DNA of 39,686 nucleotides from Lachnospiraceae bacterium (GTDB lineage: Bacteria; Bacillota; Clostridia; Lachnospirales; Lachnospiraceae): positions 1-39,686 of the forward strand of contig JAFZNO010000095.1 in the NCBI GenBank assembly GCA_017552985.1, read 5' to 3'. The notes below the pieces were generated by a model that saw nothing but the letters and a program-made list of their open reading frames with translations, had not been told where the DNA came from and did not search any database. The translations under genes were made by a program, and so were the position numbers. Position 1 is the stretch's first letter, and each line of letters opens with the position of its first letter. Shown here one piece after another: positions 8,356-28,227 of the stretch.

Positions 8356-9024
8356 TCATTCCCAAGCCTTTACGACTCTAAGCATTCCCTTTTCGAGGCG
8401 TGAATAAAACTCTTCCACGTTTTCCTTGTCCAAAAAGACGTTGATCCTCTGTGCCGCTCCGGCAAGGTCGGCATTTTCAATGAAACCACCGCTGGCGTCG
8501 AATACTTGCTGGACGTAGACGTTTTCCCAGATCAAAACCGTTTCCCCGTCCTCTTCCGTCGCATAAACGTGAATCCTGTCTCCCGCCCGCAGAACGCCTC
8601 CCACGAGCTGGCTAAGATCCTCCGCCCGAAAGCCGGCGACCACTGGCTCCTTCATGCCTGCCGTGACCTCGTTGATCGTTTGGAACATTCCCGTCGTCAG
8701 CATGGCGCCCTGATCCACGTGCCCGGCAGCAATCAGTCCCGTGATCTCTTCCATCTTACGTATCGCCGTCTCAGGGATCAGCTTCGCATCCATTCCTGTC
8801 ATCACAAAATATTCTCCCGCATTTTCTTCCGTGATCAGTTGTCCCTTCGGAACGTCCTTCACGGCAAAACAGACCTCTCCCTTCTCATAGTCCGCGAGCA
8901 TGCTCTTTTCTGCCTGCAGGAGCGCAACGTAAATCGCCGCCGTCGCCAAAAACGCTGCAAAAATGGCTCCCGTCCACAGCTTGATCGCTTTGGCCGTCCC
9001 CGTTTCCGTCTTTTTCCGTCCCAT
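8356..9024 (-). CDS. cpaB: CpaB/RcpC-like pilus assembly protein (SAF domain)
   Basis: 222 residues: one N-terminal membrane segment (LWTGAIFAAFLATAAIYVAL, about 16-35), a SAF domain (CFAVKDVPKGQLITEENAGE, about 51-115) and a C-terminal RcpC-like part (LVGGVLRAGDRIHVYA, RINVFLDKENVEEFYSRLEK). CpaB/RcpC is an extracytoplasmic assembly factor of Tad/Flp pili; here it would act outside the membrane of a monoderm. It follows the pseudopilin by 15 nt and precedes the secreted protein by 14 nt, so translation is probably coupled. Confidence 0.85.
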   Translation of the reverse strand: MGRKKTETGTAKAIKLWTGAIFAAFLATAAIYVALLQAEKSMLADYEKGEVCFAVKDVPKGQLITEENAGEYFVMTGMDAKLIPETAIRKMEEITGLIAAGHVDQGAMLTTGMFQTINEVTAGMKEPVVAGFRAEDLSQLVGGVLRAGDRIHVYATEEDGETVLIWENVYVQQVFDASGGFIENADLAGAAQRINVFLDKENVEEFYSRLEKGMLRVVKAWE

Positions 9025-9039
9025 GTCTTCCTCCTTCCC

Positions 9040-9636
9040 TTATTCTTCTCCTGCGACGTCGACCAACTTTCCCTTTCTCGCAGGAATCTCCATTCCAAAC
9101 AATCCCCGAAGCACGTAGCTGACCTCTCCGTAAACGCCCGTCTTTTCCACGGGTGTTCCGTTTGGAGCCAACACTTCCCCTTTCCTTCCCGTGACCGTCT
9201 CTTCCCTTCCTCCGTCCAGCCTGCGGCTTACAACCACTTCCCCCGTGACGTTATAAACGGTATAATTCTCAACCGTGACCTTTCCGGAAATCAGCCTTTG
9301 ATTGTCGCATTCCCATGCCTCATTCAATCCAAGATTTGCCTTGAGCGCCTCGCGATATCTTTCATATGCTTCCCCGCCGTCCGCGATCCTCACCGCGTGC
9401 GTTCTTCCATACTCCCGGACGTCGATCAGCGCAGACGCAAGGCCGGAAGCTGCCAATGCATCCTCCAGATACCGGCTAGAGGACCGTACCATCTCCATCT
9501 GCAAGAATCCAAAGAGCAACACGCCCAAGAACAGGATAAAAAATAAGCTTGCACAGAGCGTAATCTGTCCTCCGTCCCCAGCAAGGTCAATGCTTTGCCG
9601 TTGAAACCCTCGTCTCCTCCACTTCATACTTTCCAT
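9040..9636 (-). CDS. TadE/TadG-like pseudopilin
   Basis: 198 residues with a short basic N-terminus, then GDGGQITLCASLFFILFLGV and the continuing hydrophobic segment FGFLQMEMVRSSSRYLEDAL, the layout of a Tad pseudopilin. The extracellular part is beta-rich (LISGKVTVENYTVYNVTGEV, YGEVSYVLRGLFG). The start at 9636 overlaps the previous gene by 50 nt; ATG at 9627 has a better spaced AAGG and may be the true start. Probably a minor pilin that primes or caps the Flp pilus. Confidence 0.65.
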   Translation of the reverse strand: MESMKWRRRGFQRQSIDLAGDGGQITLCASLFFILFLGVLLFGFLQMEMVRSSSRYLEDALAASGLASALIDVREYGRTHAVRIADGGEAYERYREALKANLGLNEAWECDNQRLISGKVTVENYTVYNVTGEVVVSRRLDGGREETVTGRKGEVLAPNGTPVEKTGVYGEVSYVLRGLFGMEIPARKGKLVDVAGEE

Positions 9637-21621: not shown

Positions 21622-22701
21622 TCAATTGATGCTCTCCAAAACGTATTGTAACACGCTCTTCCTGTCCGTGACAATCTTTACTTGGCAGAAAAGTCCGCTC
21701 ATCAGGGAAATCGTCTCGCCTTTCTTGTTGGTCAGCGTTGTCGCGTCACAGTCGATCCAGACCGGGAAATAAGACATGCCGCTGTTTTGGTCAAATTCCG
21801 CCTCCTTGGCAATCTTGCAGATGCGTCCGGTGAGGGTTCCGTATTCCGTGGAGGGGAAGGCTCCAATCTCAAACTTTACTTCCTGCCCCTCGCGGATTTT
21901 TCCAATATCAGTGTTCAGCACAATGGCCTGCGCCTGAAAGGTCTTTTGTTGTTCCGGATAAATTTGGCCAACCTGGCTGTCGGCATACAGGATCCCGCCA
22001 GTTTCTAATTTGTCTGATGCGTAAAAGTACCCATCGTCCTTCGCGCGAATGACAAATTTACCATTGACAAAATCTTCCGCAGCAATGCCCTGGGTAAGTT
22101 CCCGATACTCCTCTTCCAGCGTTTGAAGTTCTTTTTGCACGCTTGACTTTTCATTCAAAACGCTACGCGCAAACGTGATCTTGTCAGTCTTGACCTCTTC
22201 CAACTGAAGGAGAAAAAGTTTTTTCCGGATCTGGAATTCTTCAAAAAAGAGGTTGTCCTTCATGGCGTCAAGCTGCGCCGCGTCAAGCTCCTCCATCGTC
22301 ACCGCGTCGCCATTCAAAAACCCGTTATATACCTTCAGAATGGCCAGATGCTCCTGCGCTTTCCGCAGCTTTTCATAATCATCATTCATGCCATTGTCAT
22401 TTGACAGGCTTTCCAATTCCAGCAGCGCGTCACCGCTTTGCACTCTTTGTCCGTCCGAGACGCAAACCTTTGTGATCCTGGCGTTATAGTCACAATTCAC
22501 CGCCACGCGGTCCCCCGTATCCAGAATAACGCCGTCGCATTCCGTGACTTCGTCGATCTTGGAAACGGTCATCCACAGAAGGGAGATGATAGTGATTCCA
22601 AGCAAAACGTATACAAATCCCACGATCGCAGGATTTGGTTTTTTCTCATAAATCTCCGTACTTTCCGAGAGATTTTTCATGTCTATTATGATCGGTTTCA
22701 A
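21622..22701 (-). CDS. HlyD-type accessory protein of the peptide exporter
   Basis: 359 residues: short cytoplasmic N-terminus, one membrane span (PAIVGFVYVLLGITIISLLW, about 23-42), then a biotinyl-lipoyl-like hairpin split around a coiled coil (CVSDGQRVQSGDALLELES, helical region about 90-200) and a beta-barrel end. This is the membrane-fusion/accessory partner of bacteriocin-type ABC exporters. TTG start at 22701 with GGAGG 9 nt upstream, located inside the last codons of the exporter gene, so translation is coupled (4-nt gap). It ends the unit with a terminator. Confidence 0.85.
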   Translation of the reverse strand: MKPIIIDMKNLSESTEIYEKKPNPAIVGFVYVLLGITIISLLWMTVSKIDEVTECDGVILDTGDRVAVNCDYNARITKVCVSDGQRVQSGDALLELESLSNDNGMNDDYEKLRKAQEHLAILKVYNGFLNGDAVTMEELDAAQLDAMKDNLFFEEFQIRKKLFLLQLEEVKTDKITFARSVLNEKSSVQKELQTLEEEYRELTQGIAAEDFVNGKFVIRAKDDGYFYASDKLETGGILYADSQVGQIYPEQQKTFQAQAIVLNTDIGKIREGQEVKFEIGAFPSTEYGTLTGRICKIAKEAEFDQNSGMSYFPVWIDCDATTLTNKKGETISLMSGLFCQVKIVTDRKSVLQYVLESIN

Positions 22702-22705
22702 CTCG

Positions 22706-24907
22706 CTACCCCTCCATGCCGTCGCCCAGAGACTGCTGCCTTACAAGCTCCGCGTATTTTCCGTTCATGGCGATCAGTTCCTTGTGCGTTCCCTCTTCGA
22801 TGATCCTGCCCTTTTGCATGACAAAGATTTTGTCACAATTCTTGATCGTGCTAAGCCGGTGCGCGATAAAGATTGTCGTCACGTCCTTTGCGTATTCGTG
22901 AATCGTCACGTCCAGCGCCCTTTCCGTAATGGAATCGAGATTGCTGGTCGCCTCGTCAAGGATCAGAACGTCCGGCTTTTTCAGCATTGCCCTTGCAATT
23001 GCCAGTCGCTGTCTCTGACCACCGGATAAGTTGGCTCCGTTCTCTTCCAGAAAAGTTTCATATCGAAGCGGGAGCTCGTTGATGAAATCATGGGCTTGCG
23101 CCATCTTGGTCGCTTCCACGACTTCATCCATCGTCACGTCATCCATGCCCAGGGTCAGATTTTCATAGATGGTCCCGCTGAACAAGAAGGTTTCCTGCGG
23201 GATGTAAGCAATTCTTTCACGCAGCGCCTCGATCTGGATGTCTTCAATGCTCCGGTCGCCAATCAGGATCTCGCCTTTTTCCGGCGCATACATGTGCAAA
23301 AGCAGCTTGGAAAGCGTCGTCTTGCCGGAACCGCTTTCTCCCACAAACGCAACGTTGCTTCCCCTGGGAATGTCCAGGGTAATGTTTTCCAACACAAGCC
23401 GTCTGGTACCATATCGGAAATCCAGATCGCGGATCTTTATGTCTCCCTTGAGGGTTTCCGGCACGGCCTTATGCAATTCTCTCTCTGTCTTTTCTGCCTC
23501 CAGGTCAAGGATCTCGCCCAATCTGTCCGCTGCCACCACGGCAGTCTGCATTTGCGGCTGTAAATCGATCAGGTTCTTGATGGGATCCAAAAAGTATACC
23601 AGCAACGCATTGAACGTGATCAGGCCGCCGGCCGTCATTTCGCCGTTGATGACGCTGACCGCGCCAATCCAAAGAATGACCACGCCGCCGATCAGCTCCA
23701 CGGTCGTTTTTAATCCTTCCTGGACGTTGCCTACCCAAGAAAGCTTGAAAATGCTTTTCAATAGCCTTACAAATTTGATTTCCGTGTTATGCTTTGTCCT
23801 GCGCTCCGCATTATAAGCCTTCACCGTCTGAATGCCGTTTAAAGATTCCACCATGTAAGACGTCAGCTGCGCGTTATCCTCCATCACATGTTCATTCAGT
23901 TTACGGTACCAGTCCTTAAAGACCAAAACGATAACGGCGTAGAGCACCACCATGACCACCGAAACAAAGAAAAGCTTTACGTTTTGCGTGCATAAAATGA
24001 CGGCGCCGGCCACCACCATCAGGGTGTCGATCATGATCGTCAGGGTCGCTCCCGAAATGGCATCCCGGACCTTTCCTGCATCCGTAAAACGGGAAATGAT
24101 CTCGCCCACTTTTCTTGTTCCAAAGAAATTCATGGGCAGATCCATGACGTGACGGTAATAGCCAAGGAGCAGGGAAATATCGAGCTTTTGGCTCAGGTAC
24201 AACATCATGTGCGCCCTGATCATGCCGAGTGCAACCTTAAAAAGACTCAGCAGGATCATGCCGATGGAAAGCGCCGTCAGCGTTTTCATCAAACCGCAGG
24301 GCAGAACTTTATCGATCAGCGCTTTGAAATAAAAAGCGCCCAACATTCCAAAAAGCGTATAAATCAAAGACGCCAGGAATATATGAAGAAAAAGATTCCT
24401 TTGAGGCAGCAGAAGATGGAAAAACCGGCTGAATAGCCCCTTGGTCTCCACTCCCTTTTTGAACGTCTCATTTTTTGTTAAAAGAATCAGCACGCCGCTC
24501 CACGCATACTCCGGCGGCCTGTCTTCCGTACCAGTCTCTCCAAAGAATTCCTCTGGTTTTAGTTTTACGATTCCCTTGCCGGGGTCGGCGATCACGATCT
24601 CTTTTTTGGTGATCTTATGCACCACGACGTAGTGCATAAGATTCCCGTTCACGATCATATGTGCAATGCAGGGGAGTGGAAAATCCGAATAAAAATCCTC
24701 TTTTTCGCCCTGTACGCCTTTTGCGGTAAAGCCAAGGCTTTCCGCTGCCTTAACCATGCCATACGCATTGGTTCCCTGCGTATCCGTTCCGGCAACCTCG
24801 CGGATTTTCGTGATTCCAATCTTATATCCATTCTGTTTACAGATCGTTGCCAGACATGCCGCACCGCAGTCCGTTACGTCATGCTGCTTTACGCAATAAT
24901 ACCTCAT
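22706..24907 (-). CDS. C39-peptidase ABC exporter for double-glycine peptides
   Basis: 733 residues. An N-terminal C39 peptidase domain (1-130) has the catalytic Cys14 in VTDCGAAC, His92 in LMHYVVVH and Asp108 in IADPGKG; it cuts after the Gly-Gly of leader peptides. Six membrane spans (about 160-440) and an ATPase domain follow, with Walker A GESGSGKTT, signature LSGGQRQRLA and Walker B DVLILDEATS. All catalytic residues are present. ATG 24907 is chosen because GGGGTGGG is 4-8 nt upstream; a GTG at 24916 lacks one. The two GG peptides just upstream are the obvious substrates. Confidence 0.95.
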   Translation of the reverse strand: MRYYCVKQHDVTDCGAACLATICKQNGYKIGITKIREVAGTDTQGTNAYGMVKAAESLGFTAKGVQGEKEDFYSDFPLPCIAHMIVNGNLMHYVVVHKITKKEIVIADPGKGIVKLKPEEFFGETGTEDRPPEYAWSGVLILLTKNETFKKGVETKGLFSRFFHLLLPQRNLFLHIFLASLIYTLFGMLGAFYFKALIDKVLPCGLMKTLTALSIGMILLSLFKVALGMIRAHMMLYLSQKLDISLLLGYYRHVMDLPMNFFGTRKVGEIISRFTDAGKVRDAISGATLTIMIDTLMVVAGAVILCTQNVKLFFVSVVMVVLYAVIVLVFKDWYRKLNEHVMEDNAQLTSYMVESLNGIQTVKAYNAERRTKHNTEIKFVRLLKSIFKLSWVGNVQEGLKTTVELIGGVVILWIGAVSVINGEMTAGGLITFNALLVYFLDPIKNLIDLQPQMQTAVVAADRLGEILDLEAEKTERELHKAVPETLKGDIKIRDLDFRYGTRRLVLENITLDIPRGSNVAFVGESGSGKTTLSKLLLHMYAPEKGEILIGDRSIEDIQIEALRERIAYIPQETFLFSGTIYENLTLGMDDVTMDEVVEATKMAQAHDFINELPLRYETFLEENGANLSGGQRQRLAIARAMLKKPDVLILDEATSNLDSITERALDVTIHEYAKDVTTIFIAHRLSTIKNCDKIFVMQKGRIIEEGTHKELIAMNGKYAELVRQQSLGDGMEG

Positions 24908-24976
24908 GAATCCCACCCCATACCATTATTCTCTCCGGCGTTAAGCCAGGGAGCTTCGTTTGTTTCCAACCCTTTT

Positions 24977-25126: not shown

Positions 25127-25279
25127 TTAATATGCCTTACCCTTGTAGTAATATCTGATGCCGCTGTTGCTGGCTACCTGAACCAGTCTGATGAGGTTCC
25201 AGTTTGCATCATAGCTGGGAACATAGTAGAAACCGCCATTAACGTTCATCATTTCGTTCTCATTCATTACGTTAAACAT
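25127..25279 (-). CDS. Double-glycine-leader peptide 1 (50 aa)
   Basis: Too short for standard ORF filters. Leader MFNVMNENEMMNVNGG (16 aa, ends in Gly-Gly), then a 34-residue mature part that starts FYYVPSYDANWN, contains LVQVASNSG and ends RYYYKGKAY. The leader differs by one residue from that of peptide 2, and VQVASxSG is shared. No Cys, so unlike peptide 2 it cannot form a disulphide. Aromatic-rich and basic at its C-terminus. GGAGGAAGAGTAAT precedes the ATG. Expected to be cut and exported by the C39 transporter; pheromone or bacteriocin activity is inferred. Confidence 0.9.
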   Translation of the reverse strand: MFNVMNENEMMNVNGGFYYVPSYDANWNLIRLVQVASNSGIRYYYKGKAY

Positions 25280-25412: not shown

Positions 25413-25482
25413 ATTATGGGTATCCACCGTTAAAAAATCAACCAGATATGGATGAACAACGTATTTTTTTGATGAACGACGT
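25413..25482 (-). promoter_or_regulatory. Box-controlled promoter of peptide 1
   Basis: Tandem boxes GATGAACAACGT (25451-25462) and GATGAACGACGT (25471-25482), 20-bp period, 9 nt upstream of minus-strand TTGATT (25436-25441), 17-nt spacer, CATAAT (25413-25418). The proximal box carries one change from consensus. The leader from start to ATG is about 127 nt, much longer than at the other two box promoters. Confidence 0.8.
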
Positions 25483-25491
25483 CACAGATCA

Positions 25492-25674
25492 TTAATGGAT
25501 CCGCTTGCCGTCAACGTACGTTCTGTCTTTCTCTCCGCTGCCGCTTGCCACTTGTACCACGGACATTCCAATATATACGAGGCGACAATTCATGGTTTTG
25601 TAATAACGCCAACAAACATAGTAGAAGCCGCCATTCACGTTCATCATTTCCTTCTCATTCATTACGTTAAACAT
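25492..25674 (-). CDS. Double-glycine-leader peptide 2 (60 aa)
   Basis: Leader MFNVMNEKEMMNVNGG ends in Gly-Gly; mature 44 residues begin FYYVCWRYYKTMNCRL (Cys21 and Cys30, a possible disulphide), continue VVQVASGSG and end DGKRIH. It is a paralogue of peptide 1 with a longer and charged C-terminal part. GGAGGGG lies before the ATG, and the promoter with boxes is 39-109 nt upstream. No terminator is visible behind it, so its transcript can run into the peptide 1 promoter region and gene. Expected export through the C39 transporter; role as pheromone or bacteriocin is inferred. Confidence 0.9.
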   Translation of the reverse strand: MFNVMNEKEMMNVNGGFYYVCWRYYKTMNCRLVYIGMSVVQVASGSGEKDRTYVDGKRIH

Positions 25675-25712
25675 GCTTTTCCCCTCCTTCTGATCTGCTG
25701 CGATCTAAATTC

Positions 25713-25783
25713 ATTATGCTTGTGCTTTGCATAAAAATACAACCATTTCTGGATGAACGACGTATTTTTTTGATGAACGACGT
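25713..25783 (-). promoter_or_regulatory. Box-controlled promoter of peptide 2
   Basis: Two identical boxes GATGAACGACGT (25752-25763 and 25772-25783, 20-bp period), 9 nt upstream of minus-strand TTGTAT (25737-25742), 18-nt spacer, CATAAT (25713-25718). This is the typical placement of an activator touching RNA polymerase. Confidence 0.85.
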
Positions 25784-25805
25784 AGCGGCACGGTTTTCTC
25801 CACGC

Positions 25806-25837
25806 AAAAAGACGGTCCCGCTAACCGGAACCGTCTT
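25806..25837 (-). terminator. Intrinsic terminator after the LytTR regulator
   Basis: Minus strand AAGACGGT.CCG-GTTAG-CGG.ACCGTCTT followed by TTTG; 11 bp with one mismatch. Confidence 0.85.
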
Positions 25838-25855
25838 CCTGATCAACCAACCATT

Positions 25856-25867
25856 GATGAACGACGT
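25856..25867. promoter_or_regulatory. Orphan single GATGAACGACGT box
   Basis: One perfect copy of the box, 7 nt after the regulator stop codon, without a partner 20 bp away and without a promoter next to it. It may be a decoy or remnant site, or a third contact for the peptide 2 promoter region 70 bp away. Confidence 0.5.
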
Positions 25868-25874
25868 ATCGGCT

Positions 25875-26594
25875 CTATTTATTTCTGTCGATCGTAATTC
25901 TTTTGATAAAGGAAAAATATGCTTCTTTTACGCTTTGATAATACTTCCTTCCAATCGGCACGGAGCTGCCATTCGTCATCTGCAGCGCCACCCCGCTCAT
26001 TTTCTCAACGTATTGAAGGTTTACCAAATAAGATTTGTGCGTCCGCAACATGGTTGTTCCCTTCATCTGCGCTTCCATGGCTTTTATGCTGTCATATCCC
26101 GTGATCTCATCTTTCTTGGAATAAACGCTGACGTAATTCCCCTGGGCCTGGATAAAAAGAATCTGATCCAGCTTCAAATAACAATCTCCGTCTACGGTTT
26201 TAAATGAGACGTCAATGTTCTCCCTGTTTTCCCGAACCACGGTCTTAAGGCAGGTTTCCACGCCGATCCTGTCAACAGGCTTCTCTAAAAAGGCCAGCGT
26301 TTTCAGGTCAATGGTTTCCCATCTCAGCTCCTTATGACTTGTCACAAAAACAATCCGCCAGATCCGTTCATTCCCGCGAACTTTTTCCATGACCTGAAGG
26401 CCATCCATCCCAGGCATTTCAATGTCGAGAAAGAGCAAATGAATCTTATCGCCCTGATAGGCAAGCACTTCTTCCCCAGACGCAAACTCTATGAATTGAC
26501 ATTCTTGATTTTGCGCATCCAAAAAAGAACCACATAGTTTTTTTACGTGGTCACGATACGCTTCTTCGTCATCGCATATGCCAATGGTGATCAT
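25875..26594 (-). CDS. AgrA-like LytTR response regulator
   Basis: 239 residues: an N-terminal receiver domain (MITIGICDDEEAYRDHV, phospho-acceptor Asp57 in LFLDIEMPGMDG, Thr/Ser at FVTSHKE, Lys105 in FLEKPV) and a C-terminal LytTR DNA-binding domain (about 130-230; ILFIQAQGNYVSVYS, MLRTHKSYLVNLQYVEKMSG, VPIGRKYYQSVKEAY). ATG 26594 is used because GGAGGGGGAA precedes it and it starts the receiver; longer frames do not. Paired with the kinase at 26938. Likely binds the tandem GATGAACGACGT boxes, as LytTR proteins bind paired direct repeats. Confidence 0.93.
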   Translation of the reverse strand: MITIGICDDEEAYRDHVKKLCGSFLDAQNQECQFIEFASGEEVLAYQGDKIHLLFLDIEMPGMDGLQVMEKVRGNERIWRIVFVTSHKELRWETIDLKTLAFLEKPVDRIGVETCLKTVVRENRENIDVSFKTVDGDCYLKLDQILFIQAQGNYVSVYSKKDEITGYDSIKAMEAQMKGTTMLRTHKSYLVNLQYVEKMSGVALQMTNGSSVPIGRKYYQSVKEAYFSFIKRITIDRNK

Positions 26595-26682
26595 TTCCCC
26601 CTCCGCGCCAATAGAATTCCTTTCTTTTATTCTACATGATAAGAGGGAAAAACAAAAGACTTTTTCAAAATTTACGCAATTT

Positions 26683-26713
26683 AAAAACACCACTTATTAT
26701 AAGTGATGTTTTT
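26683..26713. terminator. Bidirectional terminator ending the short box-controlled unit
   Basis: AAAAACAC.ACTTA-TTA-TAAGT.ATGTTTTT, near-perfect stem with A run on one side and T run on the other. On the minus strand it ends the transcript that starts near 26851, separating it from the regulator gene. Confidence 0.85.
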
Positions 26714-26751
26714 AGTAACCCTCATGATTTCTCCGGCTCATGACTTGGTGT

Positions 26752-26829
26752 TTATTTTCCTCCCCCCAGAAGAATCCACAAAAGCTCCCACCAATCGAGC
26801 TGAGCCAAAACAATGCTTCCACCAAACAT
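26752..26829 (-). CDS. Hidden 25-codon hydrophobic peptide ORF in the third box-controlled unit
   Basis: Starts MFGGSIVLAQLDWW and ends WILLGGGK; very hydrophobic and Trp-rich (three Trp), with Gly-Gly-Gly-Lys at the end. The ATG lies about 22 nt after the predicted start of the promoter at 26858-26927, with AAGGGGG and GAGG upstream; the transcript ends at the terminator 26683-26713, so the whole unit is about 170 nt. A second reading (33 codons, starts MRNDVWWKHCFG at 26846) has its ATG directly after GGGGG with no gap and is less likely. It has no GG-leader like peptides 1 and 2, so it may be a signal for the kinase, or the unit may act as RNA. Inference. Confidence 0.5.
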   Translation of the reverse strand: MFGGSIVLAQLDWWELLWILLGGGK

Positions 26830-26857
26830 CGTTCCTCATCCCCCTTTTTATAATTTT

Positions 26858-26927
26858 ATTATGGGAATGCCCCAAGAAAAAATCAATAAAATTTGGATGA
26901 ACGACGTATTTTTTTGATGAACGACGT
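26858..26927 (-). promoter_or_regulatory. Third box-controlled promoter (short peptide unit)
   Basis: Two identical boxes GATGAACGACGT (26896-26907 and 26916-26927, 20-bp period), 9 nt upstream of minus-strand TTGATT (26881-26886), 17-nt spacer, CATAAT (26858-26863). The -10 surroundings (CCCATAATAAAAT) are identical to those of the peptide 1 promoter. The distal box ends 11 bp before the kinase stop codon. Confidence 0.85.
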
Positions 26928-26937
26928 TTTTTCCTGA

Positions 26938-28227
26938 TCAAAGGATGATTTCCACGGTGAAAACGCCCTGTTCCACGCTCTTATGAAATTCACCATGAAC
27001 TTTATCAACGGTATTCTGGATATTCAGCAGTCCAAACCCATGATTCTGACAATCACTCTTTGTGGTTCCATAATGACTCTTCGGCTCTAAATTCTGCCGA
27101 CAAGAATTTGAAATGCGAATGCATATCCGATCACGGAAAGTGCCGCAAGAAATCTGGATTTTTTTCTCCCTGCCCTCCTCCACTTGTCTCGTTGCTTCAA
27201 CCGCATTACTCAAGAGATTGGAAAAGATGACGCAGAGATCAAAAACTTCCAGTTCCGTATGTCCAAGAAATCCACCGTCCCATTCCCATTGAACGCCTTC
27301 TTCCATCGCTTTCTGATGCCATTCGCTGATGATCGCATCCACGGCTCCCACGCCGGTAAACTTTTGAACCTCAAGCTTTCGCGTTTCCGCACGCATTCGC
27401 TCGACGTAGGACTTTAATTGCGGCAAGTCATTTGTTTGAATGCACTGCTCCAATGCCGTCAGATGAGCATTTACGTCATGGCGAAACCTTCGGATTTTCT
27501 GGTCACTTTCCATGATTTCCTTGATATGCGCCTCTTGCCTTTTCAGCGCCAGCTGATAGTACTCATTTTCCATCTTATATTGCATGGCATGATTTTCAAT
27601 GCTGGTTTGCCAGAAGATCAGAATGACAAAAATAAGCCCAACAATTACCCAACAAATGGACAATTGCAACGTCCAGTCGGAAAACTCCGTTTTTCCTTCC
27701 ATCACTCCCTGCGATACCGCAATGATGACAAACAGACATCCCGCGCCCACAAGGGCAATCGCGTACTGTGGAATGCCGAACCTCACCATCTCTCCTTCTG
27801 CGCGCAGTCCTTTGAAAAGGAGAAAGAATATAAAGAATAAGAACGGGAAAAAAAACTGCATCAACAGACTCCATAAATTGGAATCGATAAAAGCCTGGTA
27901 TGGGATCTTAAACACGAACGTCATAAGATAACTGCCCAAAATGTTGACCGCGCCCGGGACAAAAAAAACCATGGGAGACAGTAAAAGCGCCGTGATGCGC
28001 TTTTCTTTTACGAGAATGATGAGCGCCAAAATGGTAACGATGGTTATGCCTGGTCCCTTAAATGCGAACTCACCGGTCAAGTACATTGCCAAAACCAACA
28101 GGCAGGAACCGCCGATCACGGCAACCGATAATTTTGCGTTCCTATGAAATGGCACGCGCAAAATCCATCTGTAAACGACGTAATAGTTTAGAAATGCCAT
28201 CAGAAAACTCGCAACCCACACAATCAT
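26938..28227 (-). CDS. AgrC-like sensor histidine kinase
   Basis: 429 residues. The N-terminal half has about six membrane spans (1-210), the typical peptide-sensing domain of AgrC/ComD-type kinases. The cytoplasmic part has a coiled linker, an H box RRFRHDVNAHLTALE (His250), an N box FSNLLSNAVEA (Asn341) and a final GFGLLNI ATP-lid motif. This is the HPK10 family, which pairs with LytTR regulators. Start ATG 28227 with AGAGG 6 nt upstream. It is first in the locus and lies 343 nt from its regulator, separated by the short box-controlled unit. Confidence 0.92.
   Translation of the reverse strand: MIVWVASFLMAFLNYYVVYRWILRVPFHRNAKLSVAVIGGSCLLVLAMYLTGEFAFKGPGITIVTILALIILVKEKRITALLLSPMVFFVPGAVNILGSYLMTFVFKIPYQAFIDSNLWSLLMQFFFPFLFFIFFLLFKGLRAEGEMVRFGIPQYAIALVGAGCLFVIIAVSQGVMEGKTEFSDWTLQLSICWVIVGLIFVILIFWQTSIENHAMQYKMENEYYQLALKRQEAHIKEIMESDQKIRRFRHDVNAHLTALEQCIQTNDLPQLKSYVERMRAETRKLEVQKFTGVGAVDAIISEWHQKAMEEGVQWEWDGGFLGHTELEVFDLCVIFSNLLSNAVEATRQVEEGREKKIQISCGTFRDRICIRISNSCRQNLEPKSHYGTTKSDCQNHGFGLLNIQNTVDKVHGEFHKSVEQGVFTVEIIL

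Follow-up and report, generated by a model that had tools for sequence, protein, structure and literature searches.

Paired Boxes with a 20-bp Period as Putative Operators of a LytTR Regulator in a Candidate Autoinducing Bacteriocin Locus of a Lachnospiraceae Bacterium

RESULTS

Genes of the Locus

The window analyzed in this study is a stretch of 39,686 nucleotides from a Lachnospiraceae bacterium. The locus of interest is transcribed leftwards throughout (minus strand) and comprises, in this order, genes for a kinase, a 25-codon ORF, a LytTR regulator, two short peptides (P1 and P2), a C39 exporter, and an HlyD-type protein. The kinase (26938–28227) is an AgrC-like membrane sensor with a GHKL ATPase domain (PF14501, 1.5e-21; its match to the AgrC model, 4.3e-14, falls far short of the cut-off). 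The 25-codon ORF (26752–26829) encodes MFGGSIVLAQLDWWELLWILLGGGK, a candidate autoinducer peptide without a convincing Pfam or NCBIfam match. Of two longer frames over the same ORF, one of 33 codons was rejected as it is interrupted in the related locus L042, and one of 37 codons with a TTG start is open in L042 too. A terminator-like hairpin lies 3' of the ORF (26682–26714), with 15 pairs and a U run at its end. Its fold is equaled by none of 200 shuffles (z −5.27); it is not among the calls of a terminator consensus scan of the window. The response regulator (25875–26594) combines a receiver domain (PF00072, 8.4e-14) with a LytTR DNA-binding domain (PF04397, 3.8e-19), and a search of solved structures gave 53 matches, nearly all receiver domains and none informative on DNA contact.

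P1 (60 residues, 25492–25674) and P2 (50 residues, 25127–25279) are bacteriocin-like peptides with double-glycine leaders. Both pass the leader model TIGR01847 (18.4 and 17.9 bits; cut-off 15.7), and neither reaches the cut-off of 27.1 for the class II bacteriocin model PF10439 (19 and 17.9 bits). They are followed by the C39 peptidase/ABC exporter of double-glycine peptides (22706–24916; PF03412, 3.3e-36; TIGR01193, 701 bits with a cut-off of 524) and by the HlyD-type secretion accessory protein (21622–22701; PF13437, 6.8e-10; TIGR01843 below cut-off). With a kinase and LytTR regulator, double-glycine peptides, and a C39 exporter, the locus has the composition of a pheromone-regulated class II bacteriocin locus; a double-glycine-leader pheromone gene is absent at the kinase gene, where the ORF is leaderless.

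Box Pairs and Their Promoters

Three box pairs, designated operators 1–3, lie in this locus on the minus strand: operator 1 (26896–26927) between the kinase gene and the 25-codon ORF, which it precedes, operator 2 (25752–25783) before P1, and operator 3 (25451–25482) before P2. The pair reads ACGTCGTTCATC-AAAAAAAT-ACGTCGTTCATC, with 8 nt between the 12-nt boxes, and only one of the six boxes deviates, the proximal one of operator 3, in which a C is replaced by T. All three sites conform to ACGTCGTTCATC-AAAAAAAT-ACGTYGTTCATC followed by 9 nt, TTGATT or TTGTAT, 17–18 nt, and CATAAT. The −35 elements are at 26886–26881, 25742–25737, and 25441–25436, and the −10 elements at 26863–26858, 25718–25713, and 25418–25413, respectively, which gives spacers of 17, 18, and 17 nt. 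The first-pass annotation had described pairs at 25451/25471, 25752/25772, and 26896/26916, five of six boxes identical, each 9 nt from a −35 and with a 17–18-nt spacer before CATAAT; on recomputation, the period of 20 bp, the distance, the spacer, and the −10 were recovered in all three promoters, and the comparison of the six boxes bore out that five are identical. It had overlooked a seventh, solitary perfect box past the regulator stop (25856–25867), which is followed by 9 nt and TTGATC and, by eye, by no −10 at the usual distance.

At up to two mismatches, the box has 13 matches in the window against 3.34 expected, a number reached by no shuffle. Of the three promoters, two (25441–25413 and 26886–26858) are also picked up by a generic promoter scan, whose window total of 10, against 6.8 expected, is barely above shuffles. 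Direct repeats of the 20–22-bp class upstream of the −35, together with a LytTR regulator in the locus, are what is expected of a LytTR-activated promoter in general, and both are present here. Direct control of the regulator gene by operator 1 was set aside because the conserved ORF and the hairpin intervene; read-through past the hairpin is possible, and a promoter-like element, similar by eye in several relatives, is present beyond the hairpin before the regulator gene. In L043 (1980–2015), L045, and L047 (6940–6972), a GGGTCATAAGACA...TGTCTGTGGCCC hairpin separates the short ORF from the regulator gene, where the window has an A+T-rich hairpin instead.

P1 is part of a cassette with box copies at both ends (25471–25867, minus strand), the solitary box forming one edge. 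The cassette is missing from L042 (net 385 bp), where the regulator is 99% identical and the flank of the solitary box joins the P2 operator directly (8690–9300), with the junction inside a 12-bp box. Because L045 and L047 also have a single peptide gene at the corresponding place, gain of the cassette in the lineage of the window is the simpler direction, with its loss from L042, through recombination between boxes, as a possible alternative. Either way, the 12-bp operator boxes would mark the exact points at which a bacteriocin-peptide cassette was inserted or removed, with the solitary box left as an edge. Elsewhere, L030 has a short HlyD remnant directly 3' of the regulator gene (2340–2441); the peptide and exporter genes have apparently been deleted there and the kinase, ORF, and regulator kept. 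L043 and L044, one recorded as Lachnospiraceae and the other as Paludibacteraceae, are identical over the 5 kb compared, and one contig is probably mis-binned.

Rarity of the Box and Its Association with the Regulator

Exact matches to GATGAACNACGT number nine in the genome of origin (3.86 Mb, 137 contigs), and seven of these lie in this stretch. With a less strict pair pattern, four pairs are found, namely the three described above and one at C75:23176–23205, with none in the control. For the remote single boxes at C108:25064 and C128:4933, no second box at a distance of 20 bp was seen by eye in the sequence inspected. The first-pass annotation had proposed such a scan and had named many scattered copies as the result that would speak against operators; copies are rare instead.

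Among 138 genomes of the genus, including that of origin, a strict pair pattern was found in 8 and a broader one, with the additional requirement of TTG at +9, in 12; the reversed controls were found in none. Of the 138 genomes, 15 encode a close relative of the regulator (E ≤ 1e-35), and these 15 include every pair-bearing genome (8/8 strict, 12/12 broader). The chance of the strict overlap is 2.4e-9 if the genomes are independent, but they are related, so this value overstates independence. The other three of the 15 genomes (G010, G029, and G125) have more diverged pairs, likewise with a period of 20 bp. In the family, 3 of 397 genomes contain the strict pattern (reversed control, one match) and 10 of 396 the broad one (reversed control, none), the genome of origin counted in both. 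In G076, no pair was found beside either regulator relative (L184 and L185). The pair also adjoins related kinase/regulator genes in other species; that of operator 1 is the same in L042 and L030 and has changed letters in L043, L045, L047, and L033. The proposal that the pairs are LytTR operators is supported by their rarity, their co-occurrence with relatives of the regulator, and their presence beside related kinase/regulator genes, and from these comparisons of sequence we consider them very probable operators of the neighboring regulator (25875–26594).

Fixed Period and Variable Letters

Beside related kinase/regulator genes the box takes forms such as GTCGTTCATC, GTAGTTCATC, GTAGTTCGTG, GTCGTTTRTA, and GTCGTTCATG, often with the change present in both members of a pair, and the period stays at 20 while the letters vary between systems. 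Where one genome holds several systems (G046, G110, and G070), the boxes differ between them. In 27 loci searched for GTHGTTYRT pairs at periods of 14–30, all 28 pairs sit at 20; of these loci, L172 and L234–L236 entered only through the pattern, and L156, L160, L163, and L164, although collected on account of the pattern, are regulator matches as well. A hand count with a looser core (28 loci, periods 17–25) assigned 36 rows to a period of 20 and 9 to different periods, with four loci (L036, L176, L184, and L185) giving no row. Among 26 distinct strict-pattern sites (from 28 places), for which the search did not require TTG, 21 have it at exactly +9 and 5 do not; a 47-site profile was excluded from this count because some of its sites came from a pattern in which TTG at +9 was mandatory. 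The fixed period would fit one monomer per box on one face of the helix, as reported for PlnC/PlnD (PMC2714321). In L034 (8440–8486) and L031 (6926–6972), two box pairs stand back to back and divergent beside a regulator relative with no kinase match nearby.

A Short Trp-rich Peptide at Kinase-linked Operators

Downstream of 17 of 23 kinase-linked operators, at +88 to +110, lies a 15–29-codon ORF that has one or more Trp and a sequence resembling a ribosome-binding site; in 16 cases the ORF has at least two Trp. Dinucleotide shuffles (200) gave means of 0.39 and 0.12, respectively, and maxima of 3 and 2, a comparison that overstates independence since the loci are related. One further operator (L234) has a short aromatic ORF without Trp, and five (L033 at 9767, L037, L163, L182, and L186) have no short aromatic ORF. 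The 23 loci are not a random draw but come from the 15 genomes with a regulator relative, the named contigs of the regulator search, and pattern matches in the family. Left out were L031, L034, L035, and L188 (no kinase match nearby), L036 (contig end, with the system continuing in L037), L184, L185, and L176 (no pair found), and L044 (the duplicate of L043).

The short ORFs are hydrophobic, aromatic, and leaderless, with conserved parts such as LDWWELLWILLGGGK, FNWWELLKKFLG, DIWEWLKWLLGGGK, and YDFWEWLCYILG, and residues other than Trp are also conserved between species. Pfam and NCBIfam scans of 8 of the 18 peptides gave no convincing match, and the literature searched (titles and abstracts, open-access papers) contained no description of such leaderless Trp-rich peptides. 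Synonymous and nonsynonymous codon changes are 7/2 for L045/L047, 6/2 for L045/L172, 2/2 for L047/L172, and 3/6 for L187/L039; the synonymous excess in the first two of these pairs therefore supports purifying selection on the peptide there. Among the window, L156, and L030, all changes in the ORF are nonsynonymous (3 to 5 codons per pair). These changes in 26752–26829 fall mostly in the first half, the C-terminal part being the same, possibly an indication of diversifying specificity. Two gene orders occur, kinase-operator-peptide-regulator and regulator-kinase-operator-peptide, and in the latter the genes downstream of the peptide vary.

The kinase matches the AgrC model weakly; an agr system was rejected because the genome of origin (G000) has no AgrB match. 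A search for AgrB likewise found no match in G046, G028, and G325; at E ≤ 0.001 it matched in 8 of the 12 genomes searched (7 over the cut-off), always on a contig other than that of the module.

Other Genes behind the Operators

The fourth pair of the genome of origin (G000:C75:23176–23205; L150:7177–7206, minus strand) precedes genes for two radical-SAM proteins and an ABC protein and may control a second branch of the regulon, one concerned with peptide modification. In related loci, operators that are not next to the kinase gene have double-glycine peptides downstream in L155 (then a C39 exporter) and L159, and a 509-residue protein in L162. Large lipoprotein-like proteins also lie downstream of operators; those in L154, L155, and L158 match solute-binding domains, located in the second half of the protein in these three of the four, and that in L157 matches nothing. 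Proteins of this kind, of about 710–730 residues, recur under or near operators (L154:7465–9657, L155:1640–3832, L157:7532–9715, and L158:5719–7857). Other operators have, further downstream, ABC transporters, an M16 peptidase (L151), or a radical-SAM protein (L164).

DISCUSSION

Taken as a whole, the data point with good probability to the box pairs being operators of a LytTR regulator in an autoinducing (quorum-sensing) bacteriocin locus. In the mechanism that we propose, the kinase and regulator would form a two-component system for which the box pairs serve as activator operators, bound by the regulator. Operator 1 would drive the 25-codon ORF beside the kinase gene, giving a positive feedback loop; operators 2 and 3 would drive P1 and P2, which the C39 transporter would export; and the C75 pair may drive the two radical-SAM genes elsewhere in the genome. 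Through the three operators of the locus, two bacteriocin-type peptides and a very short, conserved Trp-rich peptide are probably turned on. We infer, with about an even chance of being right, that the kinase senses this last peptide as its signal, and the peptide would then be exported, processed, and recognized as an autoinducer.

The first-pass annotation could name no motif that matches the box. Its letters do presumably differ from those of VirR boxes, but the box fits the known LytTR type because it contains GTT, which we take to be the core of LytTR half-sites, and because its 20-bp period resembles that of VirR boxes. In Clostridium perfringens, VirR boxes are described as two imperfect direct repeats 7–8 nt apart immediately upstream of the −35, so that with 12-nt boxes their spacing implies a period near 20, and the boxes in the window, 8 nt apart and next to the −35, are similar; the VirR targets named in that account are toxin genes, whereas here they are bacteriocin-type peptides (PMC2838878). 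The pln regulon of Lactobacillus plantarum (PlnC/PlnD) is likewise a bacteriocin locus with a kinase, LytTR regulator, double-glycine peptides, and repeats at the −35; its 9-bp tandem repeats are reported to lie directly upstream of the −35 with a critical 12-bp spacer, i.e. a 21-bp period (PMC2714321). The present locus differs in its period of 20 rather than 21 and in having, at the kinase, a leaderless Trp-rich ORF and no double-glycine pheromone. The BlpRH/gallocin system of Streptococcus gallolyticus also has a kinase, a LytTR regulator, and a secreted peptide controlling bacteriocin genes, with one rare motif in the locus and in two remote places, but the motif reported is different and there is an extra LytTR-only repressor (PMC8545106). 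LytTR operators are reported at 4–11 bp from the −35 in S. mutans and mostly 10 bp elsewhere, a range that includes the distance in the window, and for HdrRM and BrsRM direct repeats upstream of the −35 with spacers of mostly 12, some 11 or 13 bp, and positive feedback are described (PMC6193735). Unlike the LytTR Regulatory Systems, in which a one-component regulator is paired with a membrane inhibitor, the window encodes a two-component system whose regulator has a receiver domain. The XIP peptides of streptococcal ComRS are short with a DWW-like motif (PMC4162386), and the likeness is one of the peptides only: the cell takes up XIP and cytoplasmic ComR detects it, whereas here a membrane kinase adjoins the peptide, and within the locus the ORF has no Rgg-type receptor beside it, its neighbors being the kinase and LytTR regulator. 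The main text of a 2026 survey of rumen bacteriocins does not contain the terms LytTR, operator, promoter, or pheromone (PMC13289728). The operator is of an ordinary kind for LytTR activators, with a geometry closest to that of VirR boxes, and the leaderless Trp-rich peptide is the more novel element.

The identity of the inducing signal admits other explanations. PlnA, BlpC, and ComC are double-glycine inducing pheromones of lactic acid bacteria, and P1 and P2, with their double-glycine leaders and adjacent C39 exporter, could be the pheromones here, the Trp-rich peptide having another role. This is unlikely given that P1 is absent from L042 and that L030, L043, and L033 keep the kinase, short ORF, and regulator when no relative of these double-glycine peptides or of the exporter was found in the locus. 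To a similar degree we doubt that the Trp-rich peptide is a leaderless membrane-active bacteriocin under its operator and that the kinase senses something else; its short, hydrophobic, aromatic, and leaderless character and its co-regulation with bacteriocin-type peptides would suit such an effector, but it occupies, in the 17 of 23 systems, the place at the kinase-linked operator expected for a feedback signal, and by eye no immunity gene is apparent beside the ORF. Tandem Trp codons in a short ORF before a terminator-like hairpin also recall an attenuator leader such as trpL, in which charged tRNA-Trp would set expression of the regulator. Against this stand the conservation of residues other than Trp between species, the comparable ORF that has no Trp, and the promoter-like element seen by eye beyond the hairpin, and the variable genes after the peptide in the second gene order argue against it as well; an attenuator is very improbable.

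The operators themselves could be bound by a different LytTR protein, there being 14 matches to the regulator in the genome of origin at E ≤ 0.001 (itself included), or could act as repressor sites, as PlnD is reported to repress from the same repeats at which PlnC activates (PMC2714321). Both are very unlikely: the pair co-occurs with this regulator subfamily, and its position just upstream of the −35 is that given for LytTR activators (PMC6193735).

With the Trp-rich peptide taken as the candidate autoinducer, the data suggest, more tentatively and at somewhat less than even probability, a class of peptide pheromones in Lachnospiraceae. Its members would be leaderless and Trp-rich, 15–29 residues long, and produced with neither AgrB nor a double-glycine leader; each would be sensed by its own membrane kinase and LytTR regulator through system-specific box pairs with a fixed 20-bp period, at which bacteriocin cassettes would be gained and lost. 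As a fixed pattern that can be searched for, the operator marks out candidate regulons in Lachnospiraceae of the rumen and gut that include bacteriocin-type peptides, radical-SAM clusters, exporters, and large lipoproteins, and the candidate signal is short enough for synthesis and direct testing. The systems with differing boxes that share one genome in G046, G110, and G070 could serve as natural orthogonal switches.
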